Shown here in pieces: positions 1 through 63,724 of a DNA stretch of 64,000 bases; position 1 is the stretch's first letter, and each line of letters opens with the position of its first letter. Under the pieces are notes generated by a model, which saw nothing but the letters and a program-made list of their open reading frames with translations, was not told the origin of the DNA and did no database searches. Origin of the DNA: Membranipora membranacea. Lineage: Eukaryota > Bryozoa > Gymnolaemata > Cheilostomatida > Membraniporidae. The stretch is taken from positions 19,950,062 to 20,014,061 of the forward strand of contig OU612074.1 of assembly GCA_914767715.1 (NCBI GenBank). Reading direction: 5' to 3'. A program made the position numbers and the translations under genes.

Positions 1-91
1 TCCAAATTCGAGCCCCTTCAACAATTGCATCGGAATGCAGTTCAAACTATAGTTGCAGAGTCTACATTAGAAAGAAATTGGTATTTCTCAC

Positions 92-7646: not shown

Positions 7647-10600
7647 ATGGAGAAGAAACCTAAGAGACCTACAAGCTCTACTGGATTAAGGCTAATACCC
7701 AGTAGACGCATCCGGTAGGTGATAGTCTGAAGTTACTTTTAAACAACTACTTTTGGCTGTAAACTTTCAGAAAACCTCAATAAATAACTAGCCAAATATC
7801 AATACTTAGCCAAATCATTGTTTCTGATCTGATTGGCTGTCTGATTTCATATATAGCCGATTCGAGGTCACTCTCAGTCCCCAAAGATGAGTATAATAGT
7901 AAAATTGAACTGAACTACTTTCAATTTCACAATAAAGATGGAGTGCATTTCAGATCCAGCATTAATTGTGGACACTTGGTAGTCTATCTTCAGAGATTTA
8001 CTTGTGCGGGGAGTAATAATATGGACCAACATTTTTTTTATAAGAATTACTTTTAGCAATTTGCTATGCTCAAAATCAGACTTGCCAAACTAAAAACTCA
8101 AGGGTGCCTTAAATGACCAGAAACTGCCCCAAAATTTTTTGCACTACGCGCAAAAAGTGCCTTTTATCACAGAATGCAGACCTTGGTAGCGTAGGAATGC
8201 GGATTACTCAACACTTGTCTTTTTCCCTATGCGTGTAAGGTGCAATCTGCTAATAATAAATGAGGAGTTGCATCTCTTATGTAATGGCTACAAGTAGGTA
8301 GTGCCATCTATATCCTGCAAGGTAGCCAACTGTTCAGCTACATCCTCCAGTGTAACAATAGAAGCTTACAGGACCTTACTGAGCTATGAGCAAGCGCATT
8401 CAAGCCTCTATCTTTGTAGAAACAACCCTGTGGAGAAACCCTCTGCATATGGCAAGGGTACAAAGTTACTCTTTAGTGCCTTGGTTGTTGGGATCCTCAT
8501 AGTTATAGCTTTAGCGATCATCATTGTCGTCGTCATGATCCAGAGTTCAGGATTGATGAACTTCCCCAAACCCGGTGGCACGAGACACAGACCAAGAACA
8601 GCTGGTGGTGCAGATTGCCCTGAGGCAGGTGTTCAGACAACGCGGCCAACCACTGCTGCTCCAGAGAGTGAGTACAAACGTTTTTAAAAGTTCTATGGCT
8701 GTGAATCAATACATCTAATTACATTGCATCAATGGCCTCCTGATCAATGGAATGATGGTCTCTGATTTTAGAATTTTTTGTGCTGAGTGACATCATCATG
8801 AAAGGAATGAGAGTTACCTTCCCTTAAGGAGGCTCTCTTTCCACCATCAGTAATTCATGTCAAGTAGAGCATTGAGTTATTTTACAAAGCAAATCTGACA
8901 CAACTTTAGCTTAAGTGACTGCCTGACTATAACATGCATTGGTCTTTGGGTTGTCTTTAAAATGAATTATATACCCCAGTAGTCTCTGCTAATTTATTTA
9001 AAATCATTCGGCTTGTCTATATTCTTGCTGCCTTTCACCTTCATAGCTTTAACTATTGTGTCAAACATGCAAATTCAGATCACAAAAAAATCAGTTTGAT
9101 ATATTATTTTAATAATTCAATGTATTTACTCTCATTTCAAATATATGACATAAGGATTACTCTGTGTACTTTGAGTTCTAACATATCCCATAGTTGTTTG
9201 TTTCAGTGATTTAAAAAAAAGTTATATATCCTTGGTTCTCTCCAAATTCAAAGTTAATTTGTATTCATCGCAACTCTTTAGTTACAAAATTAATTTTTTG
9301 TCATTAGCATAGATAATCGAGTGAAGAGTTTTAGTTGCATTGGTTAATTTATTTATATATTCTATTATATACAGGTTTGGACTTGGGATTTATACTTGTG
9401 GAACAACAATGTTTATATTAACAATTGTGACTCGGAAAACATGTTAATATTATATGCCCAAGTCAATTACTTTGAAAAATCTCTAAACTCACAATATTTT
9501 TTAACATGCTTTGTTTATCGCCCACCTAGTGCACTGATTTATTGGAACCATATCTTCACTTTATTTCAGGGGTTTTTCATGTTGATCTCAGTCAGATCAG
9601 CACACTGGCCTGGTGGGTTAGAAATGTCATTAATCCACTTGGACTTACACAAGTAATAAAAGATTTTACAAGAATTGCAGAAAATTCTTTATCTATCATC
9701 GATCACATAAACACAAACCAACCATTTAATGTTTCGTTCTAGCTTAGTTCTGAAGTACTCCTTAAGTGATCATATTTGGTGATGGCACTACAAAAAAGGG
9801 TGTAGTAAAATCAGAGAAAAGAATTAAGATAGATTTCAACGATAATAGCAAACTTATCGATGAAAACATACACCTATATTCATTCCTATGTGGATTATTG
9901 ATGAAGTGCTCAATCATATGACACTGAGAGACCAGTATAAATCTCAAAACTTATGGGATTTTTATAAAACTGAAAGAAACTTCGTCACTAACATGATAAA
10001 AAGGAAAAAGAAAAAGTATATGGCAATACTGGTCGAAAATTCCAAATCATTTTTGAATGTGCTAGAAATCAAAAACAAAACTAAAACGTACGTGGACAAT
10101 ATTGCTGATATTTCTAGCAGTAGTTTGGATGAGCACTTTACTTCTGTCGCTGCAAAGGTATCAAAAGATTTTCTTTAATTTCTGATTTTTCCAGAACTTT
10201 ACAAATTACCACCACAAAGGTTTGAAACAATTTCCAAAATTGACTACAGTCACATTACATAAGCTACTGAAATTAAAATCAATACCCATGAACACAAACA
10301 CAAACACTGGTCCTGACCACATTTCTGTTAGGATGTTGAACAAAACATTTCCCTACGTAGGTCAAGTGCTCACAGATATTTTCAATATTTCGTTTCAGAG
10401 CAAAAAGATGATATTTGTTTAACCAAAGACTGTGTGAGGGCATGTGAGTATGACCAAGATGGTTGCATCATTTAATTCATTAGCCTCAAAGCAACAACCA
10501 TACTGCTGCCCATTATCCAGGATGAAGCAAGTCATATGACATCTTGATTTATACAAACATTGTTTTGGCGACTATTCACTGGACAAGGACCTAATTGATT

Positions 10601-13600
10601 CCATGTGAGACTGTCAGCTTTTGTTTGTGGTCATGTTTAACTCAATATTTTTTCACCTTGTTGTACATCTTGGCAACCCTTGAACGGTTGGGGCTCCCGG
10701 CGTATTTTACTGAAGATTGAAGATTGAGTGTTTTAAAATTGAAGAAAAGATTTAAATGAAAAATCAATAGAAGATTTCCCCATTTCAAGTAGACTGGAGA
10801 CTGGATTCAGTCAAACAGCTTGGAGTTATCTACTCAGGTTGGGTTTGTTGGTTTGAACAGACAACTCCACACAACAACAAACCAAATCCAAATTTTACTG
10901 ATTTTTTATCACAGGATCCTGAGTTCGAGCCCACCTCGTGCATTGTTTGCCTAGAAAAAAATAATAACCTTCATTAACTAATAAACTTGTTGGCTCAGTT
11001 TTCACAGGCATTTTAGTACAGTAGTTTTATGTCGAGTCCAGTTGTTTTTGAAGAATTTATTCTGAAGATTAGAGTTTTAAAATTGAAGATGGCTCTATTT
11101 TCTCTGAAGAAATTGAAGACAGCATTGTGTGCAGGGAGCCCCACGGTTCATTCTAGTTAAACTATATCAAACAATTCCATTAAGCTTGAGTGAGCCATCA
11201 TAGATAATATGATCATGGTATTGATAATGGATAAGCCAATGTAAAATGTTATGTTGTCAATTATAATACATGAAGTAAATTCCACTAGATAAAAATTGGA
11301 AACAGCTTTTGCGAAGGTACAAGCAGTCCCAAGTTTGTCTGTACTATTTAATCACAGGCTCAAAAATGCCTAAAGCAATTGGCAATGAACAAAGAAGAGT
11401 ATTATGTGATACATTGACAGGCATATTATCGGACACAGGATGCAAAATAAGCTTTACAAATCCAGAAAATCTGCTGTGTGTCCGTTAGTGATACCAGGTA
11501 TTATTCTGTTGCAGCTTTGAATTTAATTGAGGCTATGAATACCTCAGTTGATCCGTGTGAAGATTTCTACACATTTGCATGTGGTGGGTGGATAAAAAAT
11601 AATCCGATACCAGATGGCGAGGATGTACATATTCCTGCCTTCAAAATGTTATCTGAACTGAAATTTCAACTCAAAGGTAAATATCATGCCGCACGATTTC
11701 ATAATCAAACAAGGCTTATGGAACCAGATTTGATCTGGAGATGAGACGGGTCCTCACAACATCCATGGGAAGAGATGTTTTTCATGCAGGATGTTTGTCA
11801 TGTGACTGGCCTTTCATTTTGATCTCAGACCAAAATATAACATAAGACGTTTCATTTTATTTTTCTCGAGCCCAATAGATGAAGGTAAAGCAACAACATA
11901 ATCTAAGGCCTCCAAAGGACAAATACAGGATTTACAAAGGATTGGCACTCCTTTAGATAGCTCTGATTACTTGGCCACATTGTGGCATTGCATTCATCAC
12001 ACTTTTGTTATAACGGTGTATAAAAAATGTGGTAAATCATTCTTATAGACAGTTTTCTGAGCCCTTATTTATGCCTCAATTCGAAGTTGCCCTCTCTCTA
12101 GTTTGGTACTTTTAACCCAAGCCGCATGGGAAAAACCTGCTGAAAGAGGTTTATCTTGAAAACCGCTTATGTGAGGATAAAAATGATTTTCGGTTCAGAG
12201 CCTGCACCATTGAAAACTCTGTGAGACAGGGTTTCCAAATCATTGGAGGCTTGAATGTTGATATATCTTAATTTTAGTGACGAAACTCCTGAAAAATTCT
12301 GCCAAATTGACCGCAAAACAGGTAGAAAATGCTATAATTGACTATCTAAACACTAAAATTATTTCCCAAACTATGTCTATATGAGTTTTCAATGTTGCAG
12401 ATTCTGAATCAAAAATAATTTTTATCCTATTATAAGCGGTTTTCAAGATAACCCTCTTTTCAGTACATTGTTCCTATGCGGCGTTGTTTAAAAGTACCAA
12501 ACTGGAGTGAGGCCAACTCCGAATTGAGGCCTAAATACGAGCTCAGAAAACTGTCTATTTCCAGTCCTACTTGAAGAACCAAATAAACCAACAGATCCAA
12601 GAGCAGTAATGGGGGTAAAGAATCATTACAAGGCCTGCATGGATGATGGTGAGATAAACAGATTTTCACAAATAAAATTTGTAAATTTCCGAGCTTGATT
12701 TGTTGGTATTGACTAGATTCTCAGTCATCGAGCTTACAACCTCAGCTGAGGAATCAAAATAATACATAAATAAATTGCTGTCATCGTGGCCAAGCAAACC
12801 GCATGTTGCACAGTTACCATATATGCTCAGAAACTCACTCGACTGGCAGGTTCAAGCAGAGTTTGAGCTCACAGTGATGGTGTAAGAAGTCCTGTTCAAT
12901 AAATTGACAATCGGAATACTCTAAATACATGGCACTGACAGCAATATTTGATGCTTTTGTCAGCCATTGGGGAGTTTGCAAACAAAAAAACATTGTATTA
13001 AAACACTTTATTTTCATGTTTAGAGGCAAAGGAAGCTCGTGGTTTGACGCCATTGTTTAACTTCTACAAGGAATTTGGCAGCTGGCCAATGATTGATTCT
13101 TCTTGGAACGAAAATTCCTTTGACATTGTGGATGCTATGATAAAGCAGGATTTAAATGGACATTCATCACTCATCTCATTCTTTGTACACGCAGACCTTG
13201 TGAATATATCTTTCAATATATTGATGGTATGTACAAAACTATTAAAAGTCATATTTGAGCCCAAAACCGCGGAAGAAACTATGTCTGCGCACAACACAAT
13301 CATCACTTAGTTGTTACATGTGGCTGCAAAAAGTCAAATAAATCATTTTGCAGGTTGACCAGCCAAAACTTGGTTTAGCCTACAGGGATTACTATCTTCA
13401 GGATAAGTTTGCATATTTGTTGGAGGGTTACAAGGCATTCATCACAGAAACCGCTCTCTATCTTAATGGCTCAGAATCAACTGTACATCAAGATGTGAAA
13501 GATCTAATAGAGTTTGAGACCGCAATCGCAAATGTGAGAGATAAAATATTCGTTTTTTAATAATAGCTTCACCTGCATACATTGTAGATGAACCAAATTA

Positions 13601-19600: not shown

Positions 19601-22600
19601 TTGAAGGGACAATAAATTTCTGTTTTCTATTAACACGCCAATAAAGCAATCAAGAATCTAGGTAAAACATTGCAATATACATTCAAAATTGAAGTTTTGT
19701 ATCACCAACAAGATAAGTGAGAGAATTTATGTTTAGCTAACAAAGGTAGATTACTAAAACTGCGTTACTTATCACTTTGAACTTGCAAATTCTAGCAGAA
19801 AGATGGTTATTGCATTACCAAATATCGAATTCTTGTATGCAAATAATTAATTTTTCAGTGCTTTATTGGCTGTTTAACAAAAATCAGAAGTATATTGTCC
19901 CTTTTAACGATAAGAGCCTCCCACACATAAAGATTGGAGCTTCTCGGGCAGCTTGCTTGAAACAGAGTATGTTAAAACCCATTAGAGATCTTCTCTGCAC
20001 ACTAGCATTATTAATTAACTTAACAATCTGTACTGAATTTTATTTTCTGCAGTGTTGCAAAGAAACCTGTCAACGTTGGAGGCTATTACTACCCTAATTC
20101 AAACGCAATAGGTACGTAACAGCTAATCTAAGGGCCTGGACTCCGGCTTAATTGTGTGTTTTATGCATTTCTTTAAAGAATTGATGCACGATCGCAGAAT
20201 TATTGCCCACTATTAGGTAATTCATCTAATGGGTTTATCTCAACATGATAAAATTTAAAGCTTGACAACAGGCTACCAGCTATGCCTGCCGTAGCGCTGT
20301 ATTGGTCACTATATCATTGGATGGTCTTCCACAACATACTGAGAACAAGATTGCTTTTGTTGGAAATAAAGCTGCTTGCTCCTGAGGGGTCAATAATTTG
20401 TGTGATTGTATATTTACAGTTTTCCCTGCTGGACAGCTTCAGCCGCCATTTTGGTCTCCAAACAGACCAGAGTGAGTATAAAAGAGTTTATGTTATTTTT
20501 CTATATCGTTTTTTCTTTTTATTGTGTTTTGCTAAAGGCTTGAACTAGTCCACCTGAAGTTCATATGATAATAATGTCACATCATGTAAAAGTCAAATGA
20601 TAGTTAAGTCACATAGTGTAAAGGTCATATTTTGACAGCATAGTCTTAGTTCATTCCAAGCGAAATATAGTTCAAAGCACATTCACTTTGAAATAAACAG
20701 ACACGAAGTGTTTTTTGTTTTCCAAGTTTTTATCATGCAACTACAGTAGGTTAGCTCAATACATTGCATACTTTGGTATGATGCGCCCAGTGACTGAAGC
20801 GTTTAAGTAAACAGGAATCTAGATTGTTTCCACAAATAAGCCATTTGGTATGGGGATTTAATCTGTTAAACAAGGCCTACAAACATACTATCACAACAAT
20901 TATGCATGAAAAGTAGCAGCAAAAAGTATCAAAGCATGTATTAGTTGGTTTAAAAGTAGTTAAAATCACAATGCCTGTCTCAGTTCGCAGACTGAGAATA
21001 AAGGTGCCCTAAATATACGTGGTATTGTAGATCTCTCAATTATGGTAGCTCAGGACATGGATTTGGACATGAGATGACACATGGATTTGATAACCGGGGT
21101 ATGTTTGTTTCTACACTTCTTCTCTAGCATGGCAGTCAGACTGTGAGAGGCCTGATTCTTTTTAGATTGCAATAATACATTTTCAATGTTATTTATGACT
21201 ATATGGTATAATGTTATAAATATTGGACTAACATCATGACAACCAGTTACGTATAGGCAAATGCTAATAGTTCTTTTTTTTTATGTATCACAGGTCGTAT
21301 GTACAATAACGTTGGGGAGAAAGGAGATTGGTGGACTGAAGACGAAGTAAAATCTTTCTACGAGTTGTCACAGTGTTTCATTGATGAATATGGCAGCTAC
21401 ATAGTACCTCAAGTCAACAAATCGGTTTGTTTACTTCATGATTCAGCAGCAATTAGCATATAAATATATGACCTTATTTTCACTCACCAATTTTTTCAAG
21501 GTAAATATGGCAGCTACCTAGTACCTCATGTCAACATGTTTGCTTGTTTACTTCATGATTGAGGAGTAACTAGCATATATATATATATAAGCTTTATTTT
21601 ATCTTATCAATTTTTTTCAGGGTTAATAAAGACTACTTTACATAGGTAAACAAAGGAAGAAAAAGCTGCTCGACATTTCGGACTGGTCACAAAATCCTTA
21701 CATCATGTTCTTTCAGTGAATTGAATGTCTTATGCGATCAGGAACCACCATCCATAAACTGTTATAAAAATATCAATAATACATTGATGTGTTCAAGAAA
21801 AGAGCCAAAAGTGTGATCAAAAAGCATTGATGATTTTCTTGTTATTCTACTGCAATCATTACAATAGACGGTAACTAGTCTTACATTGTTGCTTGTTCGT
21901 TGCAGATTGATGCCACTAGGTCGCTGCCAGAACTTATCGCTGATAATGGGGGTCTGAAACATACATTCAGGGCCTACTTAGCATATGAGAAGAAGCACGG
22001 TGTGGGTCAGAGACTTCCGGGATTGATAGACTTAAGCTCCAAGCAACTCTTCTTTCTTGCATCTGCCCAGGTGAGTCATTGCACCACTTAATAAATTGCA
22101 TAACACAAAGATTATTTTACATTTGGTTATAAGATGGTAGCAGCCATAGAAATAGAATGTTGCACAATAGATTATCAGAGTCTGAATGTCTTCAAATTAT
22201 ATACAAGAATCCTAGACTAAGAAAATCAGGAAAGGAGGCTGGAGAAATGGTTATTGGGTGTGGAAAATATCAATATTGCTATTGATTGAGATATGATCCG
22301 GAACATCAGTCAGAGATGGATGTCGCATAAGTGAAACCTTAATCAAATTCAGCTGCTATACCTTTTCCTATCAAACTAGAAATAAGCTGGAACATGAACT
22401 AAAATTCTTCCCTTTTTGTATAACTTTTTGCAGGTATTCTGTGAGTCCTGGGAGGATGCACGGTTGGACAAACTAATACGTTACAGTGGACATCCTCCTG
22501 GAGTGTTGAGGTGAGTGGCCAGCAGTCTAACTCATTTGCCGCATGATTCCATTCTTTTCAAGCCAAATCTGTCCACACATTATGTTTACAATCTTTTGTT

Positions 22601-22913
22601 CGGATGGTAACCCTAACTTATAAACTGGTAGAATATTTTTCGTAAATTATGGCAGAATGATGAGTGAAGTGAAACTTTTTCTGAATCATAAGTCCTCCTC
22701 CCACATGCGACTACAAACTGTTCATATGAACAGTGTGCCTAGACAAGATTTTGGAAAGTTGGTGTCAAAATATGGTAAAGGAGTCTAAAGAGATGTTTTT
22801 TATGACTTTTTAGGGTTCGTGGAATGCTGTCAAATTCACCAGAATTCGCTGAAGCATATCAATGTCCAGTTGGATCGATAATGAACCCAGTAAAGAAATG
22901 TTCTGTGTGGTAG
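7647..22913 (+). CDS. M13 zinc metallopeptidase (neprilysin/ECE-like), apparently complete gene
   Basis: Predicted exons: 7647-7714, 8420-8667, ~11452-11676, 12565-12648, 13024-13226, 13354-13533, 14408-14497, 14729-14830, 15405-15530, 15965-16099, 16489-16587, 18364-18441, 18996-19105, 20053-20111, 20420-20471, 21031-21098, 21294-21424, 21906-22070, 22434-22510, 22814-22913. They sum to 2,400 bases (799 residues), in phase throughout. Order: cytoplasmic tail, membrane helix ([18 protein letters not shown]), [22 protein letters not shown]...[17 protein letters not shown] (exons 14-15), zinc motif HEMTH in [12 protein letters not shown] (exon 16), third-ligand motif ELIADNGG (exon 18), [11 protein letters not shown], and C-terminal CSVW-stop. 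All catalytic residues I can check are present, so an active ectopeptidase is expected. The acceptor of exon 3 is uncertain: it has a weak pyrimidine tract and a second possible donor for exon 2 lies at 8671. Confidence 0.93.
9396..10422 (+). mobile_element. Broken LINE fragment: endonuclease and start of reverse transcriptase (CR1/L2-like)
   Basis: Frames give the C-terminal part of an APE-type endonuclease ([12 protein letters not shown] near 9510, [19 protein letters not shown] near 9640, then DHINTNQP). A linker follows ([25 protein letters not shown] near 9950-10020 as two short blocks), then the first RT motif ([17 protein letters not shown] near 10300, FNISF). Several stops and frameshifts; the RT catalytic motifs and 3' end are absent. 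It lies in intron 2 of the plus-strand M13 gene, in the same direction. The clade call is an inference from gene order and motif style. Confidence 0.75.
12048..12555. mobile_element. Mariner/Tc1-type MITE with ~150-bp inverted arms in intron 3
   Basis: The left arm starts GACAGTTTTCTGAGC at 12048 and the right arm is its reverse complement ending at 12555. Similarity continues about 150 bp into both arms, including TTATCTTGAAAACCGCTTAT. The element is flanked by TA on both sides (12046-12047, 12556-12557), the target duplication of Tc1/mariner elements. No transposase is encoded. The right end lies 9 bp before the first base of exon 4 (12565). The superfamily is inferred from the TA duplication only. 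Confidence 0.8.
21388..21620 (+). repeat. Tandem duplication of an exon end and adjoining intron (two ~117-bp units)
   Basis: The end of exon 17 (ATATGGCAGCTAC.TAGTACC) and the first part of intron 17 occur a second time from about 21505. The second unit carries ATGGCAGCTACCTAGTACCTC, the same downstream GTTTACTTCATGATT and a T-rich tail. It has an in-frame stop (TAG within CTAGTA), so it cannot serve as extra coding sequence; it also repeats the acceptor-like TTTTTTCAAG. Confidence 0.8.
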
Positions 22914-23796: not shown

Positions 23797-23852
23797 GCGC
23801 CTCACTCCAGCTGTATATGGTGTCCTGTCTAGGTCTATTATTAAGTATTAAC
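23797..23852 (-). mobile_element. Solo end of the P-type MITE family
   Basis: On the minus strand it reads TTAATAATAGACCTAGACAGG then ACACCATATACAGCTG.AGTGAGGC. These are the terminal blocks of the MITE found complete at 63238-63724. I do not see the partner end nearby, so it is a remnant. Confidence 0.65.
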
Positions 23853-26769: not shown

Positions 26770-27689
26770 TATGTTAGGATATGAATATAATCACAATTGT
26801 TTTGATCATAAACTTCTCAACCATTCCATAAAATCACTGACCATCTGTTCTTTCTATGCGAATAAGATGCAGATATTGAATCAAGTCCTCATTCTCTCTA
26901 TTTACTATAAATATGCTGCCGAGTTGTGGAGGAGATAACTTTGTGAGTGATTTACTCTGTCTAAGTTATTAGACTTTCTCTATTTTTGTTTCTAATTTCC
27001 GTCCCATGAATAGTTACACGATAACCACAAGATGACAGTGGAGGAGTATCGTAAACAATGTAGAAAGTTTGTGAAGAAAACTTGCACCAAACATCACGGA
27101 CAGAGTCCCATTGCTGGATGTCAGATTTGCTGGAAGGTTTTCTGCGTTGAATGTACAACAGAGCAAGAAATTGCAAAGATGGTAAACAATTTTCAAATCC
27201 TTCACTTCGATTCTTACAACTATTCGTAACCTACAGGTATAAAATAAATAGTCAACATCAGAATGGTATTCAAGGCTGTAATATTCTTTCATGTAGACCA
27301 GTAACTGGTTAGAGAATAAGTCATGTGCAGTAGTAAAGGGTGATTTTATTTAACAACGTCTGACATCTGTAGATCAATCTTGATCTGGTTTGCCTGAGTA
27401 TGAAGTTGCCTCCCCCCTCAAGCCAGTAGAATTGGACTGAATTTGTCCTCATCTCATACAATGAATTATAATGTACCTGCCCGCATGGAAGTTGTGCCAT
27501 GTTGAACGCGCGACAAAATGTTTACCCGAGACCAAGTCTTGTTTAGTCTAATGATGAATCATGTCTTCATGATTTGTAGGTTCAGCTCACAGAACTCAGA
27601 TACTAGAGAAGCTAGTACAGTATATAGAGGGTGAGGTAGATATACTGAAGACAGAAGCTTCTAAACTTGATACTAAACTATCAGAAAAA

Positions 27690-27973
27690 TACAATAGATT
27701 TAGCAGCTTGTCTTGAACAGTTTGATACAAGTTTTAGGCTAACAATTATTGTGGAAGAAGAAATAGCATCAAGTCGATAACAAGACACTGCTTATTTTAA
27801 AGCAACTTTCAAACTCAAAATCCGATAAAAATTGATCGAGTTATGAACAAAAACCTGGATTTTGGACAGCAACATCGCTTCTACATCTTCCGATGTTGTC
27901 ACTTTGCCTCACAATTAAGTGCCTCACTTCAGCTGTATATGGTGTCCTCTCTCAGTTTATTATTAAGCCTATG
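27690..27973. mobile_element. P-type MITE, right half only (TRIM copy A)
   Basis: Matches the interior and right arm of the MITE at 63238-63724, ending ATTAAGCCTATG before CCATTTCC. The left half and about 1.7 kb of TRIM sequence (rest of coiled coil) are missing; the break is at about 27685-27690. Confidence 0.8.
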
Positions 27974-36200: not shown

Positions 36201-39200
36201 GTTTAACTTGGTTTAAATGTTGGTTAGAACCACAAGGGTTCATCATCACTCGCCGCATCCCGAGGCATGGGTGGCGAGATAGGTTGCCTTAGTAGCTAGG
36301 ACGCAATGGCTGCGCCAATTTGCTCTCAGTTTGTAGGCAGGTCGGAGCAGCCAACAAGGTCCAACAATCCCCTGTGACCAGTGGACTGCAGTGGAACTCA
36401 AACCAACACCATTCAATACTTGCATGCTAAATACCAGCGCTCTAACCAACTAAGCCACCTCCTACTCCTTGTGCGCTGCTTGTGATAAGGTTATTTGGCT
36501 TAGTGAGTAGTAGTAGTTTGTCCGGCAGATAATAGTTGTACTATGTCCTGAATCATTGATAATCAAATCAAACGTTCCTGTTATAGCTGGCAGATATTAG
36601 AGCTAAATACGACAAACTGGAGGCAGAGCTGGTGGAAAAGAGGGAGACGACTCATCGAGAGATTGAGGAATTTCTCTCTAACAAGTTGGGAGACATGTTA
36701 ACAGATTTAAGAAGGGAGATCAAACTCTGTGAGGCCAGACTGAGAGATAATCATCAGGTGACAAAATTATCAACATAAATTGAGATTTTCTTAATCTTTG
36801 TGTATGAGAGCAAAGACAACTTTAGAATCCCAGGCTTGACCCAAACTCTCAGGTTACTGATATAAGAAGGGAGATCAAACTCTGTGAGGCCAGACTGAGA
36901 GATAATCATCAGGTGACAAAATTATCAACATAAATTGAGATTTTCTTAATCTTTGTGTATGAGAGCAAAGACAACTTTAGAATCCCAGGCTTGACCCAAA
37001 CTCTCAGGTTACTGATATGATTGTTGTAACAATTATATTGTTCTCCATCATTTGCGATTGGTAAAGGTATCCAGGGTAATGAATCCTACACTCACATCTT
37101 TCCTCGCAAAAGATAAATCTATTGAATGTTTTATACTTTCACTGATTCACAACTGATTCTATCTTGTTTGTACGACGTAAATTATAAGTTTTTATGGCAT
37201 TTTTCAGATGTGAGATATAAAGACGCTCAAAATTAGATCAAATCACTTTGGCAGTAAAAAACTCCTAATCTGAAGATACTCAATTTTCTCACAGAAATAT
37301 AAATCAATTGAATGTATTCTGCCTGCAAAGTAGTTTTATTTCAAAGCAGTATTTTACATTGATACTGATTCACTGATATTTCTACTCTGTTTCTGATTTT
37401 TGCTTTCTATAAGATAGAGTTTTTATTTTTACTGCTTTATTTAGGTGGACGTGGTTGTGAAATATAAAGATGCGCAAAGTCTAATCAAATCACTTCTGGA
37501 GGAGAAAACTCCAAGTCTGAAGATAAACAACGTATTAGTACTTGCAAAGACAGGTAAGTATTGATTAATCAACCTTAGGCTGTCAGGTAAAAACTCTGAT
37601 AATCACAACAAGTAGAAGCCTTCAAAATATATTCTGGAGAAAACTGACATGCTAATTTTTTATCCTTCTAGTCCTTCGAGATATTACTGTGTTGGAACAA
37701 ACAGCGACTCTGTAAACATTCAATGAATCTCAGCCACTAGATATTAGCGGGTTAAACCAGAGACATATAAATATTTATAAGTATTTATTTGGTTATGAGT
37801 TGAACATATACAACTAACCATTACCCATAGACTTAATGATAAACCTAGACAGGACACTATATGGAGCATTAGCATTGAGGCACTGAGGCACTTAATTGTG
37901 GGCGACGTGACGGCATTGGAAGGTGTGGAAGCAATGATGTTATCATATAGACCTACTAATAATAAACCTAGACAGGTGACAGATATAGAGCTTATACAGT
38001 GAGCAGTGAGGCCTATAATAGCTGGAATTCCCCAATGACACAACGATACTGTGTTGTGCACAGTGCATGCTGCAATGAATGGTTTTACCGTATGAGCGTG
38101 ACTGATTATAAGCTATAATGGCATTTTTCTCATAGAGATATCGTAGACCGATGCCTACAAGTTGATTTGATCTGAAAGGTGATGTACCAAGCAACGCCAT
38201 AGTCTCTGAATATTATCTCTAGCTTAAATATTGAATGAGATACAACCATTAGAAGTTGGCAATATCTGTAAACGTTGATACATTATAGCAAGGAGCAACA
38301 GTGAAGATAAAATGTGTCTTGTATTGGTTGTAATAATAAATGAGAAGTCTTATTCTTACTATGCAACTGAACATCCAGAAGTACCACTAGAAGTACGAGT
38401 TGCGTACTTTATATCATGATATGCATAGATAGACCAGTTACTGATGCTGAAATATTATCAATCTATTGAGTTTAGACCGGATGTTTTCATTTTTCTCTGA
38501 TGTTTTCTTCTGGGTTTCGTAATGAACTCGTATCATTATGCATCGGTGGATAAGGGATCTGATTGTTGAAGTGGAATGCACAGCACATTTCATAAATCCA
38601 TGCAAATTTCCTAAAAGAATATAGTTGAGGACTCTGTTTCGGGTTTTGATAAGTATGTTTGTGTCAACACCATTGCATGTTATATAATTGCGGAGTAGTT
38701 GCTCGCTCACTACGAAGAGTTTCTTTGTGTTGGGAGAAAGTACAACAAGCCCGCCCCTATTCTTGACGGACACCAGTGTAGTATCATCATTCGGGTCGTT
38801 AGTGTCTGTATCTATAAGTGAATCTCTACAGTCTGAACATGTCTAAGATACCTATCATGTTACGTTGTACTCTCTCCTTCTTCTCAAATCCGCGTATGCG
38901 TTGCTGCAATGTCTTTACTCGCCTCCTTTGTTTCGGAACTTTGGCTTCAGGAGTTGTCTTCTTTTGCCCACGCCCCTCCTGCGGCGCATCGCTACTCAGT
39001 ATTAAGGGTATATCTGGAACTACAGGTTTTGCTGCTTCAGCAGGAACTGTATCTGTTTGCACAGTATGTAAATCCTCACTAGTTTCTGCGCTTGAACTCG
39101 GGGGATGGGGGGGGGGGGGTTTGCAGCGTCTCTGCTTAACACTCTACGTTTTTTGGGTTGTGGGGGTCGTAGATACGCAGGATACTCCGGAAACATAGTA

Positions 39201-42200
39201 GGCACTGCATTCAGATAGAGCATAGCCCGTCTCCCTGGAAGGTTAGGAGGCACTCTGTATGCACCCTTTCCAAAATGCTTGCTGCATAGAACAGAGTTTG
39301 TGCTCGGTTTCCAATCTTTACGGGACACTGCTTCGATCCATTTGTCACGGCGTTCCTGCTGAGGCGGAAAACGGTGGAAGGTGAGGCTTGCATCCTTAAT
39401 TGGTGTGTTGCTACAGCCAAAAGCACAGCAGCAGTGTCGACTACTTTTACTGGCCTGTAAAACATGACATCAATCTTTCTCCTACTTTGCGAAAGTGAAA
39501 AAAGAGCATAATGTCGTGCCTGTCATTGCCACCTTTACCTGACAGTATTGAAAAGTAGAGCATACCATACCATGGAACTGAAACAAATTAAAACACAAGT
39601 ATAGTTATGAATCTTATCATACCGATTGCGATGTTGATGCGATCTCAGGTGTGCAAGAAATCCACTGAGCAACTGGACAGTTTAGTCTCAATAAGGCAAA
39701 GCCATAGAGTTATCCCCCCTAGAGCTATTACTCACAGACTAATAACATTGCGTTTCCGGTGGAGGTGTGTGCACAGTGTCGGCCATATTGGATTTGGGGA
39801 GCAACACATAAACATTCCATTGTGCTCTATAGTTGTGGTACAAAATTCATGGATATCTCTAGGGTTTTTTCAATAGATCTCAACATCTGATGAACCCAGG
39901 CATAGATTGAAGAACCCAGGTAGAGTACAAAGACCTCTTAGCTGTATTTTATGATTTTGAACTCATTTTGAGTAAAATATATGGACATCTCAGTGAAGCA
40001 TGGTCTTGGGAGGAAAAAGAAGTGTAACTGGAAGACAAGGTATGTCAAGTGCATAAATCTTACATATTCTGAGAAGCTGAGTTGTTTCCCATCACATCAC
40101 ATACACTAAAACATTTTCATTCTGCATCTGATTGGACTGGTGATTAGCAATCATTATTTGTTTGGATAGCAAGCATGACTTTTTAGTTCTTCAATTTCAT
40201 TCTTCATTTAATTTTGTTGTTGTCCAGCATTCCTATCCCCCCTGATCCCATCATCCATTTGCCTTTCTATCTTTCTACAGCTAGCCCTGCATAATTGCAG
40301 GATTGAATGTAGAAAGACAAATAGAATGGTAAGATTACATCATTGTCAGCCAGCTAGCCAAATATATAATATTAATTGGCACAATTGTAATTGTGTGTAT
40401 TCATTTATTTCTTTCTTTCTGCAGCTAAGAACTGTAAGATAGTTTTGGATTACCCACATTCACTAAACAACAAGCAGGTGAGATGCCCGGAGGGAGCTTT
40501 TGCTGTGCAGTTAACTGCTCTAACTCTTCAAGTAATTCATCTAAAAAATTCCATGGGTGAGTTATTTTATATTATAATTTACAATGATGTAGCTTGGATC
40601 TATAACAGCAATAGTTGGTGTAAAATTGAGTTTTGTAGGCACATGGAGGGTTGATTCCCCTACAGTGGTTTAGTGCCCCTCAAAAAACCACCACCAATCA
40701 ACAAAAGAAGTTGTGTTTTTTGTTGGTTGCTTCCGGTGGGGGACGGTTTGGTGGGCACTCGACCACTGTTGGGGGACCAAACCTTCAATGGTGCCCATGG
40801 CTGTTATTTTGTACTCTTTGCATTTGTCAGGGCAGAGCTTTTGAATTCAATACCACCAAAAATGTTACAATATCGTTCACGCTTATCATTAGACTCACGG
40901 ATGTATTACCACTAGCGTGTTTGTGTAGTTATTGAATCTTGAAACTTGAATACGTAATCAAAAAATAATCATTGTTACAATGCATTGTTATTATAGATTT
41001 CCACTGAAAGACCCTGAACTGACCAAAAAATGGGTGGTTGCGACAAAGAGAGAGGGCTTTAATCCTGGGAAGTCGACAAAGCTGTGCTCCGACCATTTTA
41101 AAGACAGTGATTACGCCGGAGTGCCAAAACAGTCATATCTAAAACCTGATGCCATTCCTTCTGTGTTCACTTTTCCAGCACATCTTATGGTATGATGAAT
41201 ATGACATGAAGCACATAGCTTTAGCATTGCCATGCGGCCAATTAAAAAAAAGGGCCGCAGGGCAAGGCTACATAACTTTGACATTGAAGCCTAAATCTTT
41301 CCATCGGAAAAGAATTGTTAACTCTTTTTTTTATATGAGGAGTGTATCAGAACTACTGGATGGATTATTCAGATGATTGAATTATTCAAATAATCAATTT
41401 CAATGATCAGAACCGACACTTTACCTTTGTAGATTACACAAATATTGCACTCATTCATGTACATGTAGGCAATTCTCATTCACAGAACATGGTAGTTGTG
41501 GCTTAACTTTTTTCCAGTTTTTGCTGCCTGTCTTTGTGTCTGAGTTTTTCACATCGCTGACATCCCAGTAGCTGATATTATATCAATCTTGTTGTTTGTA
41601 GCCTAAGCAGACCAATGTCAGAACTGCACGGAAACGCAAATTATCCACAGAAGATTTGCCGAGCTCAGAGCCAGTTTTAGATGATAGCCCGACTCCAAGC
41701 TCCTCTAGTACTCCGCATGATCATAGTTACAGCGAGGATATAGGTACGTATAGAACAGCAAACAAACATAGCTCATGCTCATAAAAATAATAATGAGTTT
41801 ATTTGATATCCCGCTCATAAAGATCACACTATGATCCCGCTTTATGAACTCCAAGATAGGATAACTTCTAAGCGGCTGTATTTTTGTGGAATTTATAATT
41901 TAATGTGGTGGATGTAGATGTTGTAAATACCATAAATGTGTTTGTCTACATGTACTTTCGCATTTCTATTATTTCTATTATAGTGGCAGGTAGTGTTATT
42001 CACAAAATGATATGAACAAATATGAACACAAGCAACTTGATTTTATATTTCACAGATGTCGCAGTAAAAAAGTCTAAGGAGAGAACTAAGTTACTTGAAA
42101 GAAAAGTCAAGGCGTTATCAAACAAAGTGCGAAGGCAAACACAGCAAATCAACACCCTCAAATCTCTTTTGGTTGAGCTAAAAGAAAAACAGCTGCTACA

Positions 42201-45200
42201 AGCACACCCAGCCGCAATATTAGAACAATGCTTTGACGACAACATAATTGATGTCATCAGGAATGAGTACGAGAACAGCTCTCGCCATAAAAAGGGTAGG
42301 CGTTATTCTGAAGAGACAAAACAGTTTGCTCTAACCTTACACTACTACAGCCCTCAAGCTTATGAGTTCTGCAGAGAAAAACTTTCCCTACCTCACTCGT
42401 CATCCCTCAAGCACTGGCTCAGTAATATAACATGTGAGCCCGGATTTCTATCTAATGTGATTGAGGAAGCAGCTAAGTCAAACATAAAAGACTTCTCCCT
42501 AGTTGTTGATAGTATGTCCCTCATGAAGACCACAACTTACTCGAACAGTCAGTTCTCAGGATACTGCGACTATGGCGGTGTTGTCGCAGAAGAAAGCGAA
42601 CGTCTGGCATCAGAGGCTTTAGTGTTCTTGCTGGTACCTCTGCACTACTCAGTAATGAAATACCCCGTGGGTTATTTTCTGGTTGACAAGGTAAATGCAG
42701 ATATTCAAACCAGACTTGTGCAGAATCTTCTCAGCATAACTGCTGAGAAGGGAGTTCTTATACGTAATATAACCTCCGATGGCGCCTCCGCCAATATCGC
42801 CATGTTCTCAGCTCTTGGTGCTGATCTAGATGTACTCAATCCAAAGCCTTACTTTAATCATCCACAACTCGGCCACAGGGTCTACACTACCCTCGACATA
42901 TGTCATATGCTTAAATTAGGCAGAAACACACTCGCTGACTATAAAGAACTGAAAGTTGACGGTAGGACTGAATCAATATATTGGAATCACATTGTGCAAC
43001 TATCATCGCTGCAAGATGACATTGATCTACACCTGGGAAATAAACTATCGTCACAACATGTAGCGTGGCAGAAACAGAAGATGAAGGTGAAATTGGCAGC
43101 TCAGACTTTCAGCCGTTCAGTGTCCGATGCTCTAGAGTTTCTCAAGCAAGCTGAAGTCCCAGAATTCAAAAAATGCTCTGCCACTATAGAATTCATACGT
43201 CAGGTATATTCTCAAAACTTAGTGCATTCTTGCTGTATGCTCCTGCTCGCTTTCTTTGAACTGTTAATGCTTAAAATCTCAAGAAGTGCTGCACAATATC
43301 AATGTTTAAACCATTCGATCTCGATTTTTCAAAAAGCGATATCTCGATATAGTTTGTCTCGCTGGGATCTCTTAATTTCAGAAAATTTAGCGCCATTTTC
43401 CACAAGATACTCCAGGGATTACCTTGATTCAAGCCTACTATCTTTTCATAACAATACTAGGTCAATATGGGTATAGTTGATCTCATATCAATGATTTTAT
43501 AATTCGTTCCAATACTATAACATTTAATGTTAGTTTTGATATCAAATTATTGATTACATATTTTTGGATTAATCTGAAATCTGTGAGCACTAAGTTAAGT
43601 TTATGTTGTTGCTTGACACTTATGTTCTGTACTGTTCTTTCAGAGTTCTGCCATTGTTCCTCTACCTTTCAATCAGCATGTTACGGTGAGTGCTTGTTGT
43701 TAGACTCGACTTTTCCGTATTTTTGTAAAAAAAATTGTTGCTCGTAGTCGAATTGAGTCATAGATAGACCATGATAGAATTTTCATCATTCTCTGAAATG
43801 GTGCTATAAACATCTGTGAATCCCCACTTATCATTCAACGCACCCCAGCCAATGAATAAATAAGTAAATCAGCTATCGTTTCATACCAAATTGAGTTTTT
43901 ATCTTTGCTTGCAATGAGATCCATAATACAGAAATTTGGATCGCATTATTGCTTGTTCAAATCTGTGTAAGAGTAGTCTTCTCATGCCAACTTTCAATAG
44001 ATATAAACTGCCACTAGCAGTTTAAGTGCATCTTTATCTCTTCTCCGTATTTACTTGGTGACTATTACCTATACAGCAATCTCTACATAATTGACCAATA
44101 CAATTACGTATTTCTTTTTCACAGATGGACATCGTATTCGACATATTAAACTCTAAGAGTGCATACGGGAGATTTTCAAAATCTCCATAACGACCTGATA
44201 ACATGGCAGAGCAGAGAAAGAACTATGATAACTTCAGAAAATACATCCTTTCCATACAAGATTCGAGCGGCCAACCACTATATAGGGGAAGACGCAAGAC
44301 ATTTATAGTAGGCTTCATAAACACATTCCACGCAGTTCTCATGCTAGCAGAGGAGCTGTTTTCCTCAGGTTTGAAGTACCTGCCTACGTTTAGGATATCA
44401 CAAGATTTTATAGAAACACTTTTCAGTAAGATTCGCAGGATGGGTGGTCACAACAGCAACCCTACATGTGTGCTATTCAAAGCTGCTCTTAAAAAGCTAC
44501 TGTGTAAGCAGTTCGTACAGGGCTCTAACAGTGCAAATGCTTTAGAAGCCGATTCCAACTCCGGCATTTTCTCTCTGAAATGGAGCAAGCGAACTGCTCC
44601 GGTACCAACTGTTAGTGACATTTCATTGTCAAATGATTTAGTTGAGAAACTTCAACACCTCGAGACAAGCACAAGTAACATAGTTAGGGATAATATTGTT
44701 ACATATGTTGCAGGCTATGTTGTTCGATCACTGTTAGGGTCTGTCAAGTGTGAGGCCTGTGCCGAAGCTTTGGTCGGGAAACGAGGCAACTGTGTATTTG
44801 ATCATGACTATCAAAGTTACAGTTACAAATCTACACAGTTACTGAATATTAAGGATAGAGGTGGCCTTGTGGCTGCCTCACAGTCTGTTAATGATATTAT
44901 AAAGCGGTGTGAGTCCATCATGGAACGATATGTTGATCAAAAATTCCTACTTAGAGATAATCATATAAATCTGCTTGTGGCGTTGTTATTCCGCAGTGTA
45001 ATTGTAGAAAATCCTATTTTATTATTTACTCATAGCTGTGAGCTTGGGGAGGGTAGTTTAGATCACAGCAAACAGTTGATCAGGGAAATAGCCAGAAAAT
45101 ATTTTGATATTCGTATAAAACACTATGTTAAGCATTACAACAAAACAGTTATTCATGGGAGTCAGGGAAAGTATCGATCAAAGTTGAGTCGCCTTGTAAT

Positions 45201-48200
45201 ATTTAAACATCTGTAGTCTTGCATCATTCACTCTGCGATTTAATCTGATATGGTACAATCCAATTTATTTTATGTTTATGATCTATTTCATTATTGTCTA
45301 TGAATTAAAAAAATTATATCCATGTATCAGTCTGTGCTTGATAGGATCAATAAAGTACATTGATATGAGTAGCATCTATTGTATCTTCTTTCTAGCATCA
45401 CTGGTAGGCCATAGCATGGAAGCTTATATTTCCTTAATCTTTGGGTTAAAACCTCTGCAATGGTGTTTTGTGGTTCATCATAGCTTAAAATTTACCTGTT
45501 GAGAGCTATGGTACTTGCAAATCAATGCTTAATCTTAAAAAGCTAACTCCTCCCCATATAATTATATTTCTTCAACAGTCCACAGTGATTTGTTTATGTG
45601 TTGCTACACAAATCCAATATGGCCGCCGGATACACATGCCTCCACAGGAAGTCAACATTGAGTCATGGCTCTAGGGGGATAACTCTATGGGCAAAGCCCA
45701 CCAATAAAGAGTATGCAAAAATTAAGCTAATCCTACAGCGATAACTTTCAAGATCATGCTACTTATGGGGACGTGTAACAAACCCCTTGAGCTACAATAC
45801 AGATGGACACAGAGGCATGTGCAAGGTTGACCAAGGTTATAGCTATTTTTAGCTAGCCATGCTTTGAGTCATCAACTGATTGCAGCACACCCACATGATA
45901 AGGCCTGTGTCTTTCAGAACGTATAAACAAATATTTTCACGCAACAGTCAGTCATTGAGTCATGATATTTCCGACTTCTAATGGACGTAACTCACTCAAT
46001 ATTTGAGTCAGATACAAAATTCAAAGACTTACAGCTGGCTTGGTCCATCACATTTCACATAAAATTAACTTGCTTGCATAATTTCTCGATGAATCTGTGA
46101 GAAAAATGCTATTTTCTTGCTGCAATGCTTAAATGATGTATCACTGTTTACAGATATTGCTGGCTTCTAATGGTCGTATCTCATTCAATATTTGAGCTAG
46201 AGAAAAAATTCTAGAGACTATGACGTTGCTTGTTACATCACCCTCCAGATAAAATTAACTTGTAGGCATCAGTCTTCGATATCTCTATGAGAAAAATGAC
46301 ATTATAGCTAATAATCAGTCACGCTCATATAGTAAAACCATTCATTGCAGCGCTCACTGTGCACAACACAGTAACGTTATGTCATTGGGGAATTCCGGTT
46401 ATTATAGGCCTCACTTCAGCTGCGCAGGTCACCTGTCTCGGTTTATTATTAGTAGGTCTATGTGTTATCATTGATTTACTGTCAAAAATCCAGGTTTTTT
46501 TGTCGATAACTTGATCAATTTTGATCGGATTTTGAGTTTGAAAACTACAATAGATTTAGCAGCTTGTCTTGAACAGATTGATAGAAATTTTAGGCAAACA
46601 ATTTTTGTTGAAGAAGAAATAGCATCAAGTCGATAACAAGACACTGCTCATTTTAAAGCAATTTTCAAACTCAAAATCCGATAAAAATTGATCGAGTTAT
46701 GAACAATAAACCTGGATTATGGACAGTAAATCAATGATTGCATCATCGCTTCTAGACCTTCCAATGTTGTTACTTTGCCTCACAATTAAGTGCCTCACTT
46801 CAGCTGTATATGGTGTCCTCTCTCAGTTTATGCCTATGCTATTTCCTAATTTAATTATGTGAAAGTCATAGGGAGTTATTTCTCCACAAAGCTAGAGAAG
46901 ACAAGGCTCAAAAAAGGATAACCTGTATTATATATGATCGCCTTTCTGGTTGGTAAGACCAAGATCATTGTACCTTTCAGTTTTAGATACACATAAACGA
47001 TTGTATAATTATTATCAGACAATTTCCATTTTACGAAGGATTATTGATATTCTAGTTTTATTTTGACTATGGAACCTCGGATTTAATACACTGAATTTTT
47101 TTTCCTTTTGATAACCATGTTTAACTTATATATCTCTGATATATTACAGCCCCTATCAGAGGTATAGAGGTGAAGATAATAACTACTGACACGATCTCTC
47201 TCACTGAGGATAGAGAACATTCTAAACTTACCAATCAAATCCCAGCTGTCCTTGCCCCTCCCACTTCTATAAAATTACTGCAAGAAGTCAGTTTGGACAT
47301 TGGCTGCACAACAGTATGTCGATATCAGAATCAGACTTATGTTGGTCTTTATGGGGGGTCTGTAGTTAAAATTGGCCCCGATTATAAAGTCACACAATTC
47401 ATTAAACTGAGTAACAATGTAAGAGGGATGGCAGTGTGTGGTGATCAGCTGGTCACCACTACTCGGGGTAATCCACAAACAGTCAGTAAACATGAGTTAT
47501 CTACTGGTAGATTAGTAACTAGCTGGACTCATAGTGATAACCCTATTGGCTGGTGGGTCAGTAACTTAGCTGTAGTAGGTGAGCGGATAATCATATCTGG
47601 AAATAAGAGACTGAGTGTTTATTCTAAAGTTGGTAGATTAATCAAACACATCCCCTGTCCTCAGCTTTCACGAGATCGGGTATGCCTCAGTGCTGCTGAC
47701 AATGACAGCATCATCTTATCTGACCATACGACTTCTAAAGTACACAAGATCAGCATAACTACAGGAGATGTTATCTGGACATCATCTGATGTAACTAAAC
47801 CACTCAGAGTAACCTGCTACAATAATCAGTATGTGCTGGTGGCTTCTAGAGGCAGAACAACAAAGATCAGCATTCTAGATATCAGTACAGGTGAACTTAG
47901 AAATATTATTTGATTTGCCTTTTTGAATGATTTGCTTGCCATGTTCCGCGGAACTATCGGAATAAACAGCACTTCTCTTATATTGCAAATAAATAAACAA
48001 ATTGTGCCTGAAAATTGTTTATGGTCTGCTGTTCGTAGATAAATAATAAATATATGATCCCGGTTTATATATTTTCCACACATAAAGTATGAATAAAATA
48101 AACATTGATCAATTCATTGAGATGCAACAAAAATGACAAAGTTGTTGAAAGAGCAAATTATTATCTACAAATTTACTTTTAGGGAAAATAATCAGGACAA

Positions 48201-50520: not shown

Positions 50521-50737
50521 ATGAGATTGATTGACATGCTCATCAACACACAAGGGTGGCTTCATGCTGCTGGGGCCGGTCATGAGGAGGTTGTACTAGA
50601 GAAAGCCTCGAAACAAGATTTATATAACTTATTCTCTGGCAGAAGAAGGGAACAGCAGGATTCAGTTTATGGCCTCATCATTCTGTTGTGTGAGGAGTCG
50701 GTAATTGAACGAGTTGGAGATTTAACCTTGGATTGCT
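50521..50737 (+). CDS. Possible ankyrin-repeat-like fragment
   Basis: An open frame reads GWLHAAGAGHEEVVLEKASK, reminiscent of the LHxAAxxGHxEVV core of one ankyrin repeat, then LYNLFSGRRREQQDSVYG and a hydrophobic stretch, before running into a minisatellite. No splice-linked neighbours could be found. It may be a single decayed exon or chance; I would not name a gene. Confidence 0.25.
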
Positions 50738-51080
50738 CATACCTGAGACCTCATCTCATACCTGGGACCTCTCATTACTTGGACGTCTCATACCTGGGAC
50801 CTCTCATACCTTGGACATCTCATACCTTGGACTTCTCATACCTGGAACTTCTCATACCTGGGGCCTCTCATACCTGGGACTTCTCATTAGTTGGGACATC
50901 TCATACCTGGGACCTCTCATACCTTGACCTCTCATACCTGGAACCTCTCATACCTGGGGCCTCTCATACCTGGGACTTCACATTAGTTAGGACATTTCAT
51001 ACCTGGGACATCACATAGATAGGACCTATCATACCTAGGACCTCTCATAGATGGGACCTATCATACCTAGGACCTCTCGC
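50738..51080 (+). repeat. Minisatellite, 16-bp unit CTCATACCTGGGACCT
   Basis: About 20 imperfect units in tandem. Common variants are CCTTGGAC, CCTGGAAC and CTGGGGCC, with occasional TTAGTT units and a change towards CATAGATGGGACCTAT at the right end. Because 16 is not a multiple of three, all frames cycle, giving open but meaningless translation. Confidence 0.93.
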
Positions 51081-57006: not shown

Positions 57007-59047
57007 GCATTCAATGAGCCTCAGCCACCAGATATTAGCGGGTTAAACCAGAGACATATAAATATTTATCAGTATTTATTTGGTTATAAGTAGAACATAT
57101 ACAGTTAACCATTACCCATAGACTGTTGGGGATCACACTGCCCTCAAACCCCCATCGCTCGGGTACTTCACACCCTCGAAGCATTGCGATGACGTGCAGT
57201 ATCGCTTCGTATCACTTGGTATCACTTGGCAAGTATGATATGCTGTTTAACTAATATTTCTATGACATTTTTGCTCAATCAAAATAAGTGATGAGTTAGA
57301 CAGAATATAGAAAAAGCTGTTACCTGTGCTGCAGAAGATTGCTGCTGCTATTCTGTATCAAATTCTATAAAATCTATCAAATTATCTGCATCAAAGGGAG
57401 ATTACTCCAAAAAACACAAGCATCATTGATTTTTCTACCACAGCTAGATGTTGTTGCGTCTCAGTATTTAATGGGGACACTTTTTGATAGGCTATTTACT
57501 ACACAGTGTCCAGTCTAGTGTTGTGTATTTTGTCTATGGCATTTACCCTCAGGGCGTCTCAGAACCCCTAAGATCGGAACAGCTTGGGCACAAGACTTTT
57601 CGTGCGTGCCACATGGTAAACTTCTTGAATAAAACGATAGTTTAAACTCCTGCTCTTTTTATAATGATTTTTATGCCTTATTTTAAGACCTGTTATCGAA
57701 TACTGAATAATTTAGCACAGAACCAAGACTTATCGATAAATTTTTATTTCTTGATTGAATAAATCCATCCATCCAATACATATATAATCATTTAACACAT
57801 TTTGACCTTGCAAAACACTAACTGACAAAATTTTAAAATTCAACTTTTTGCATTATGTGATTATTTTCACTCATTGGCCTTTGCTCTAAAAATTGTTTTG
57901 CAGTCACCACTTCCCTTTTCTTGGTAATGCTTATTTAGAGACAACAGTTAAAAGTGTAAAAATTACTGCCTTTGAAGTTATGAGTTGTCTCACTCTGCAG
58001 GGTTTCTATGGATTCTAAGCAAAATGGTCCATTCAGTTTAGCCTTAGAACCACAGTATCTCTTGATTATGAAGGAAAAATTTGTACCAGCCCCATGGTGT
58101 AATAATGAATAAGCAACAAAATTTTGGTAAGGGAATTCCCCTGACACTGGCTTCCTGACCAGGCCCCTCCCCCTAATACAATTTTTCATCAACTCATGCT
58201 GTTGACACTTTGAAGCAAGTGATTGTGAAAGGAAATTACTGTAGCCTCTATCTATATCCTACACACAAAGCTCACTTTGTCTTGTGACAGATCAATCAGT
58301 GTTACATCATCAGACTCTTCATTACATCTACTACAACATCTCATCACCACACACTGGTTAGTGGGTAGTAGTCTGTCTAATATTTGATTGTATTGTAGTT
58401 GTACACTGCTGCACCTTGAGGTGGGAAGCTCATTCACACTGCTGTGCAGTTGGATATCAAACTAAAACTGCAGAGTATAAGTGAAACTGTCCTCTTGCCT
58501 TGCAGCCAGCAGGTAACTAATTTCCAATGACATTTAACTACATATTTGGTTACTGCTGATCACAGTCATGTTCTGTAGGGGGAGTATCCACTTTTATGTA
58601 AAAACTCATAGTAGAGGGTTTGTTGATGCAGCCCATATTGCATGCTCAGACATATTTTAGGTACTGCGTCCAATCAAACACTCGTTCGAGGTGCAACAAA
58701 AGATGTATGGCAGGTGCTCTATGGGACATGTCTTACATTGCACTCATGCTGCCCCCTACACCACCAGCAAGACTGACTGCTGAATGGGGTTTGAGCGCTG
58801 CATGACAATGTCATAAATCTCACAACACCTTCGCCAGTGCCGGTTTTAGTCCCTAATCATAACAACATAAATTATTGTAATGCTACCCATTACTATGCAT
58901 GTCCCCTTCATAGTAGTGTAGGAGAGTACATGCCTAAGGCTGAGACCGTGATGACCCTTGATGAATAAAAATACTACCTGCTTCTTTAACTGAATCTCAT
59001 TATCTATAGCTCGTTCCCCTGATTCTTATTCTTTCCACCTTAAGATA
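57007..59047. other. Spacer between TRIM copies D and E
   Basis: The first 8 bases of the P-type MITE (CATAGACT, from about 57116) remain after CCATTACC, then the match ends abruptly in unrelated sequence, marking a deletion or rearrangement breakpoint. From about 57449 the sequence matches the upstream flank of copy B (31775 on). It includes the conserved leader ending at the donor 58355/58356 and about 110 extra bases near 57790-57900 relative to B. Confidence 0.65.
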
Positions 59048-63237: not shown

Positions 63238-63724
63238 CATAGACTTAATGATAAACCTAGACAGGACACTATATGGAGTATTAGCATTGAGGCACTGAGG
63301 CATTTAATTGTGGGCGACGTGACGACACTGGAAAGTGTGGAAGCAATGATGTTATCTTTGATTTCCTGTCAAAAATCCAGGTTTTTTTGTCGATCAATTT
63401 TGATCGGATTTCGAGTTTGAAAGCTACAATAGATTTAGCAGCTTGTCTTGAACAGTTTGATACAAATTTTAGGCGAACAATTTTTTCTTGAAGAAGAAAT
63501 AGCATCAAGTCGATAACAAGACACTGCTTATTTTAAAGCAACTTTCAAACTCAAAATCCGATAAAAATTGATTGAGTTATGAACAATAAACCTGGATTAT
63601 GGACAGTAAATCAATGATCGCAACATCGCTTCTAGACCTTCCAATGTTGTTACTTTGCCTCACAATTTAGTGCCTCACTTCAGCTGTATATGGTGTCCTC
63701 TCTCAGTTTATTATTAAGCCTATG
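63238..63724. mobile_element. P-type MITE, complete copy with long inverted arms
   Basis: 487 bp. The left arm starts CATAGACTTAATGATAAACC, the right arm ends TTATTAAGCCTATG, and arms align for about 195 bp each (shared TGAGTTTGAAAG, AATCCAGGTTT, GAGGCACT). Flanks CCATTACC (63230-63237) and CCATTTCC (63725-63732) match at 7 of 8. No coding potential. The first 35 bp resemble the ends of the outer P-like element at 37946, suggesting mobilisation by the same transposase family. Confidence 0.85.

Follow-up and report, generated by a model that had tools for sequence, protein, structure and literature searches.

The closest described counterparts of the locus reported here come from zebrafish, Anopheles gambiae and Drosophila. 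The P-like Pdre2/THAP9 of zebrafish combines a THAP domain and a P transposase in one gene, has CATA...TATG ends (CATACCTGTCAAC) and 8-bp target duplications, and includes internally deleted copies (PMC10983969, PMC7776569). Anopheles gambiae carries several P subfamilies in one genome, together with miniature inverted-repeat transposable elements (MITEs) that have P-like ends and 8-bp duplications and presumably rely on transposase made by full elements (PMC1562414). In Galileo, a P-superfamily transposon of Drosophila, the terminal inverted repeats are long and resemble foldbacks, and some of them contain internal duplications (PMC4168063). Nesting of this kind is ordinary. A partial P element nested in an Accord element has been described (PMC2891717). 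Here we analysed a 64,000-nucleotide stretch of the genome of the bryozoan Membranipora membranacea (contig OU612074.1, positions 19,950,062 to 20,014,061; hereafter, the window), in which an inner P-type element lies within an outer P-type element, which in turn lies within a MITE, all in one intron of copy C of a duplicated gene (copies B to E).

The zebrafish and mosquito features named above recur at this locus, the 8-bp duplication of the MITE in degraded form (6/8 in copy C, 7/8 in copy E), and the outer element resembles Galileo in its long repeats. Compared with Pdre2, the end sequence after CATA differs, the inner element has an in-frame stop, and the outer element has inverted repeats of ~350 bp against 13 bp (PMC10983969, PMC7776569). 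The mosquito master elements have 27-31-bp ends (PMC1562414), whereas the entire MITE here forms one foldback, with the nest inside it. Galileo mostly duplicates 7 bp (8 bp in three copies) at a palindromic target (PMC4168063), whereas the duplications here are of 8 bp and no palindrome was seen at the three sites. We considered and rejected an assignment of the outer element to Galileo, given its 8-bp rather than 7-bp duplication and a target that pairs at 4/7 dyad positions. Its closest precedent is the internally deleted KP element of Drosophila (PMC7776569). Among the papers listed in our literature searches, none was seen to describe three P-type elements nested in each other, which is not to say that no such description exists; one candidate, PMC5800288, was set aside, as "nested" there refers to nested polymerase chain reaction. 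The locus provides a history of P-type insertions that is resolved to the base and can be compared with a paralogue, together with a deletion derivative of the KP type and a P-MITE that forms a foldback. What is known of P elements (several families, MITEs, internal deletions) is extended by it but not changed.

Architecture and insertion order of the nest

A first-pass annotation, made from the letters of the window, had described three elements nested in each other, with CATAG or TATAG at one end and CTATG at the other. Both the window sequence and our scripted scans bear this out. The inner element begins with CATAG and ends with CTATG, and GGCAAAGC is duplicated on its two flanks at 8/8 bases; its length, put at 6.0 kb in the annotation, is 5987 bp. 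The outer element (37946-46462, TATAG...CTATG) is flanked by TGTTATCA, again duplicated at 8/8 bases, so that the perfect duplications claimed for both large insertions hold. Its span of 8517 bp agrees with the 8.5 kb given earlier, but only 2522 bp of this is its own DNA, the rest being the inner element (5987 bp) and the 8 bp duplicated on its insertion. The palindromic MITE (37826-46838) has 488 bp of its own DNA, and its flanks, CCATTACC and CTATTTCC, are equal at 6/8 bases. Over the last 18 bases, terminal inverted-repeat identity is 17/18 for the outer element, 16/18 for the inner element and 16/18 for the MITE of copy E. Both large elements have terminal inverted repeats together with an 8-bp target duplication, as expected for the P superfamily. 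A direct repeat of ~150 nt (45964-46303) lies at and within the right inverted repeat of the outer element.

The order of insertion, MITE, then outer, then inner, follows from the nesting alone, as the annotation had proposed; copy E has the MITE without the larger elements, and both large insertions are seen in copy C only. With the outer element and one duplication removed, the MITE of copy C equals that of copy E at 461/480 aligned bases (gapped columns excluded; one 8-base and one 6-base gap), and the copy E MITE runs unbroken across the outer target site, save one changed base of the duplication. Identity in the intron flanks of the two copies is similar (263/273 and 264/275). The annotation had treated copy E as an empty-site control. 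This is right for the outer insertion but not for the MITE itself, because no MITE-free paralogue was found in the window.

To ask how often such ends occur by chance, we scanned the window with fixed limits: C/TATA...TATG ends separated by at least 80 bp and at most 10 kb, a duplication with at most one mismatch and at least 16/18 end bases identical as inverted repeats. The scan returned three pairs, namely the outer element, the inner element and the MITE of copy E; the copy C MITE is absent from them because its duplication is 6/8. No comparable pair occurred in 200 random windows matched to the local dinucleotide make-up. At a looser limit (12/18) there were five pairs in the window, and at least one chance pair appeared in 17/60 block shuffles. 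One of the looser pairs, 20626-22774, has perfect 12-bp inverted ends (CATATTTTGACA) and a flanking duplication of 7/8 (GTAAAGGT/GTAAAGGA). Chance is not the main argument against it, a 12-base prefix of this kind having occurred in 1/200 random windows. We set the pair aside, as its span seems to hold exons of another gene, which may be metallopeptidase-like.

The MITE is short and non-coding and shares its ends with a P-type element, as a P-MITE does. Folded as single-stranded DNA, the whole copy E MITE reached -107.7 kcal/mol, whereas its shuffles averaged -43.8 (z -12.7) and none of the 100 folded as well. Its presence, whole or in part, in copies B, C, D and E is most simply read as insertion before the duplications that gave rise to these copies, and the MITE is probably older than them. 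The homology of copy D (57109-57300) ends eight bases into the MITE, and the sequence beyond has no other match in the window; the break is either a rearrangement breakpoint at the transposon end or another element.

Table 1 Features of the nest and of the MITE in other gene copies (positions in the window).
Feature	Position	Strand	Remark
Host intron of gene copy C, holding the whole nest	37554..47149	+	9596 bp, predicted limits; donor GTAAGT after AAGACAG, acceptor TTACAG before propeller exon
MITE target duplication, left	37818..37825	.	CCATTACC
MITE, left part	37826..37945	+	last 8 bases are also the left outer duplication
Outer target duplication, left	37938..37945	.	TGTTATCA
Outer element, left part	37946..39694	-	coding pieces on minus strand
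Outer terminal inverted repeat, left arm	37946..38286	+	314/358 aligned bases equal to right arm
Outer C-terminal transposase piece	38438..38842	-	blastp; out of frame with coil piece
Outer coil/linker piece	38826..39143	-	matched by 5/145 proteins
Outer open frame with THAP domain	39020..39469	-	Pfam THAP E 3e-18
Inner target duplication, left	39695..39702	.	GGCAAAGC
Inner element	39703..45689	+	
Inner THAP domain	40483..41195	+	apparently two exons (from 40483; from about 40998), predicted splice sites; THAP E 1e-11, second piece
Inner P-type helix-turn-helix, RNase H N-part, GTP-binding insertion domain	42056..43203	+	Pfam E 2e-22, 3e-27, 9e-37
Inner RNase H C-part and C-terminal region	44125..45216	+	RNase H C-part E 1e-12; broken by in-frame TAA 44188-44190
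Inner target duplication, right	45690..45697	.	GGCAAAGC
Outer element, right part	45698..46462	-	includes right terminal inverted repeat 46133-46462
Outer target duplication, right	46463..46470	.	TGTTATCA
MITE, right part	46471..46838	+	
MITE target duplication, right	46839..46846	.	CTATTTCC
MITE right part in copy B	27684..27973	+	left part replaced by other sequence
MITE stub in copy D	57109..57124	+	CCATTACC and first 8 MITE bases, then other sequence
MITE in copy E, without outer and inner elements	63238..63724	+	487 bp; one long hairpin

Proteins and family relations of the two large elements

By its protein evidence, which comprises domains, sequence, fold and acidic residues, the inner element belongs to the P superfamily. 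The Pfam domains THAP, Tnp_P_element, TNP-like_RNaseH_N, TNP-like_GBD and TNP-like_RNaseH_C all scored above their curated cut-offs; a further candidate on the core, SAGA-Tad1, fell below its cut-off and was disregarded. In a PDB sequence search, the sole match for either half was the Drosophila P transposase 6p5a (expect value (E) 1e-12 and 0.005). The core exon was modelled with 21 sequences (mean predicted local distance difference test score, pLDDT, 79.6; predicted template modelling score, pTM, 0.58), and a fold search with this model placed 6pe2 and 6p5a first (E about 1e-15, template modelling (TM) score 0.50, root-mean-square deviation (rmsd) 10.5 and 7.8). D165, D255, D490 and E493, numbered from position 42016, are identical in 11/11 aligned rows, comprising the inner element and 10 relatives. 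The catalytic acids of the Drosophila P transposase are D230, D303 and E531 (PMC7776569). By motif, D165, D255 and E493 probably correspond to these, with the alignment to 6p5a placing the first a few columns off. The inner element does not encode an uninterrupted transposase, as an in-frame TAA at 44188 lies between the GTP-binding and RNase H C parts.

A protein search with the inner core exon, in which the 7999 candidates sharing the most words with it were scored, found 242 proteins, of which the best 120 were listed. The best, P0001, is identical at 479/486 residues, lies on a separate 2840-base contig and ends before the TAA break; a second near-identical inner copy or allele therefore exists. 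Scans of viral contigs, prokaryote genome contigs and plasmids, which may omit records of the window's own genome, confirmed no relative of the inner core; 2 pattern stretches came from the viral and 32 from the prokaryote contigs.

The outer element lacks the catalytic core. We compared its coding pieces with 145 proteins (120 transposase matches and 25 propeller matches; E<=0.01 for the C-terminal piece), and the THAP, coil and C-terminal pieces matched 22, 5 and 16 of them, respectively. The listed matches place the THAP piece at the N-terminus of full-length transposases, the coil piece directly behind it and the C-terminal piece close to the other end; for the C-terminal piece this holds for each of the eight matches listed. 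The coil and C-terminal pieces, neither of which has a Pfam match, join out of frame at about 38839-38844, and a C-run near 39110 lies where the THAP frame passes to the coil frame. A THAP domain by itself is not specific to P elements. Taken together, the THAP domain, the C-terminal piece, the ends and the duplication support placing the outer element in the P superfamily as well, in line with the P-element-like identity first proposed for both elements. With its N-terminal THAP domain and coil kept and its core deleted, the outer element has the build of KP, in which the THAP and dimerisation region at the N-terminus remains but the catalytic core is missing. In contrast to KP, the pieces of the outer element lie in different frames, and the inner element separates its 5' region from the rest; any repressor role is putative.

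The right end of the outer element matches the MITE end at 82% over 45 nt (E 3e-6), which unites MITE and outer element in one family by their ends. The inner and outer elements share 31/88 residues in the THAP domain and 40/157 in the C-terminal piece, and their ends gave no cross-match at E 0.01; judged by these comparisons, they are of different P-superfamily families. Repeated insertion of one superfamily into itself, as the first-pass annotation had put it, is accordingly correct for the superfamily, and the MITE and outer element do share ends, but the inner element belongs to another family.

Insertion history and alternative explanations

We consider it very probable that the nest was built sequentially by ordinary cut-and-paste transposition. 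A 487-488-bp palindromic, non-autonomous P-type MITE would have entered the ancestral host intron with an 8-bp duplication, probably before the tandem gene duplication, and the outer family's transposase may have moved it. An element with the same kind of ends as the MITE would then have entered the MITE's left arm in copy C, duplicating TGTTATCA; it may have arrived already deleted, moved by transposase in trans, or have lost its core in place. Finally, a 6.0-kb element that belongs to a different P family and has all the transposase domains would have inserted ~230 bp upstream of the outer THAP frame, duplicating GGCAAAGC. The intron would be spliced out and would have tolerated the insertions, and by analogy with KP the THAP fragment of the outer element may at one time have served as a repressor.

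Several observations weigh against this history. The MITE duplication is degraded (6/8 in copy C, 7/8 in copy E) and the window has no paralogue that holds the site without the MITE, which makes the MITE insertion less firmly shown than the other two; the stub in copy D has only eight MITE bases, and gene conversion between copies could have been another route of MITE spread. The inner core model is of moderate quality (pTM 0.58; TM-score 0.50 and rmsd 8-10 to 6p5a/6pe2). A scan of viral contigs found 4 stretches with the inner end 16-mer, about the chance number by estimate, and none with the outer end. A protein search with the outer THAP frame (14 candidates) returned 10 proteins, none near-identical over its length; the best is 79% identical over 47% of the frame, and the named matches are frog THAP2-like proteins. 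An assembly or haplotype artefact, in which the assembler joined separate repeats, would also count against it, and the region is indeed repeat-rich with closely similar gene copies. Both large elements, however, sit base-exact between perfect 8-bp duplications, which makes such an error unlikely, and the outer target is single in copy E with one base changed, a pattern that a random join would not yield; we regard the chance of an artefact as close to negligible. The degraded duplication and the missing MITE-free paralogue would also suit a MITE that is an ancestral intron foldback with fortuitously similar ends rather than a transposon insertion. We find this highly improbable, given the match of its ends to those of the outer element and a second end of the same family outside the gene copies (23799-23845; 89% over 47 nt, E 1e-12). 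The outermost bases of that fragment are not CATAG.

The first-pass annotation had also suggested target preference, which is not supported. The three targets, CCATTACC, TGTTATCA and GGCAAAGC, are unlike and share no motif by eye; pairing within the 14-bp target dyad occurs at 4, 2 and 1 of 7 positions (window mean 1.79/7), and the pooled 7/21 (P 0.28) gives no significant target palindrome at the three nest sites. Targeted self-insertion, in which the host's P-type transposases favour P-type elements or this intron through sequence, hairpin or chromatin and the nest represents homing, would explain three P-type elements at one point and the entry of the outer element into one arm of a 487-nt foldback. 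But the inner and outer elements come from different families, and the case rests on one locus, at which preference, tolerance and accident cannot be separated. Insertions in non-functional DNA are better tolerated, which alone is enough to enrich nests. In favour of targeting, Drosophila P elements are reported to hop locally and to insert preferentially at promoters, at origins and probably in open chromatin (PMC7776569), and a 15-bp palindromic target is reported for Galileo (PMC4168063). Overall, intronic tolerance with local or chance insertion explains the nest, preference is simply unsupported, and we judge targeted self-insertion very unlikely. It is scarcely credible, in our estimate, that elements of its own superfamily land preferentially in the foldback MITE and that small RNA from its intronic hairpin, together with the outer element's core-less THAP fragment as a KP-like repressor, would form a local self-regulating trap for P-type transposons.

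Host gene and other features of the window

The host gene had been labelled as TRIM. Translations of its exons gave only sub-threshold domain matches (B-box, E 1.7; PQQ-type propeller, E 0.01), so the label is plausible but unproved. This type of gene and the introns of the P-type genes would point to an animal. The propeller exon (47140-47913) has 25 related proteins, the best of which, P0121, is 84% identical; an automatic source labels it BamB. The donor string of the host intron occurs again at 62959 and the acceptor string at 28275. Gene copy C also contains a tandem duplication at 36694-37018 (156-nt spacing, 97.6% identical). Elsewhere in the window, 82-5898 and 7478-13543 form a large inverted duplication with pieces 73-85% identical, and a repetitive open frame lies in a region of tandem repeats at 50714-51078.

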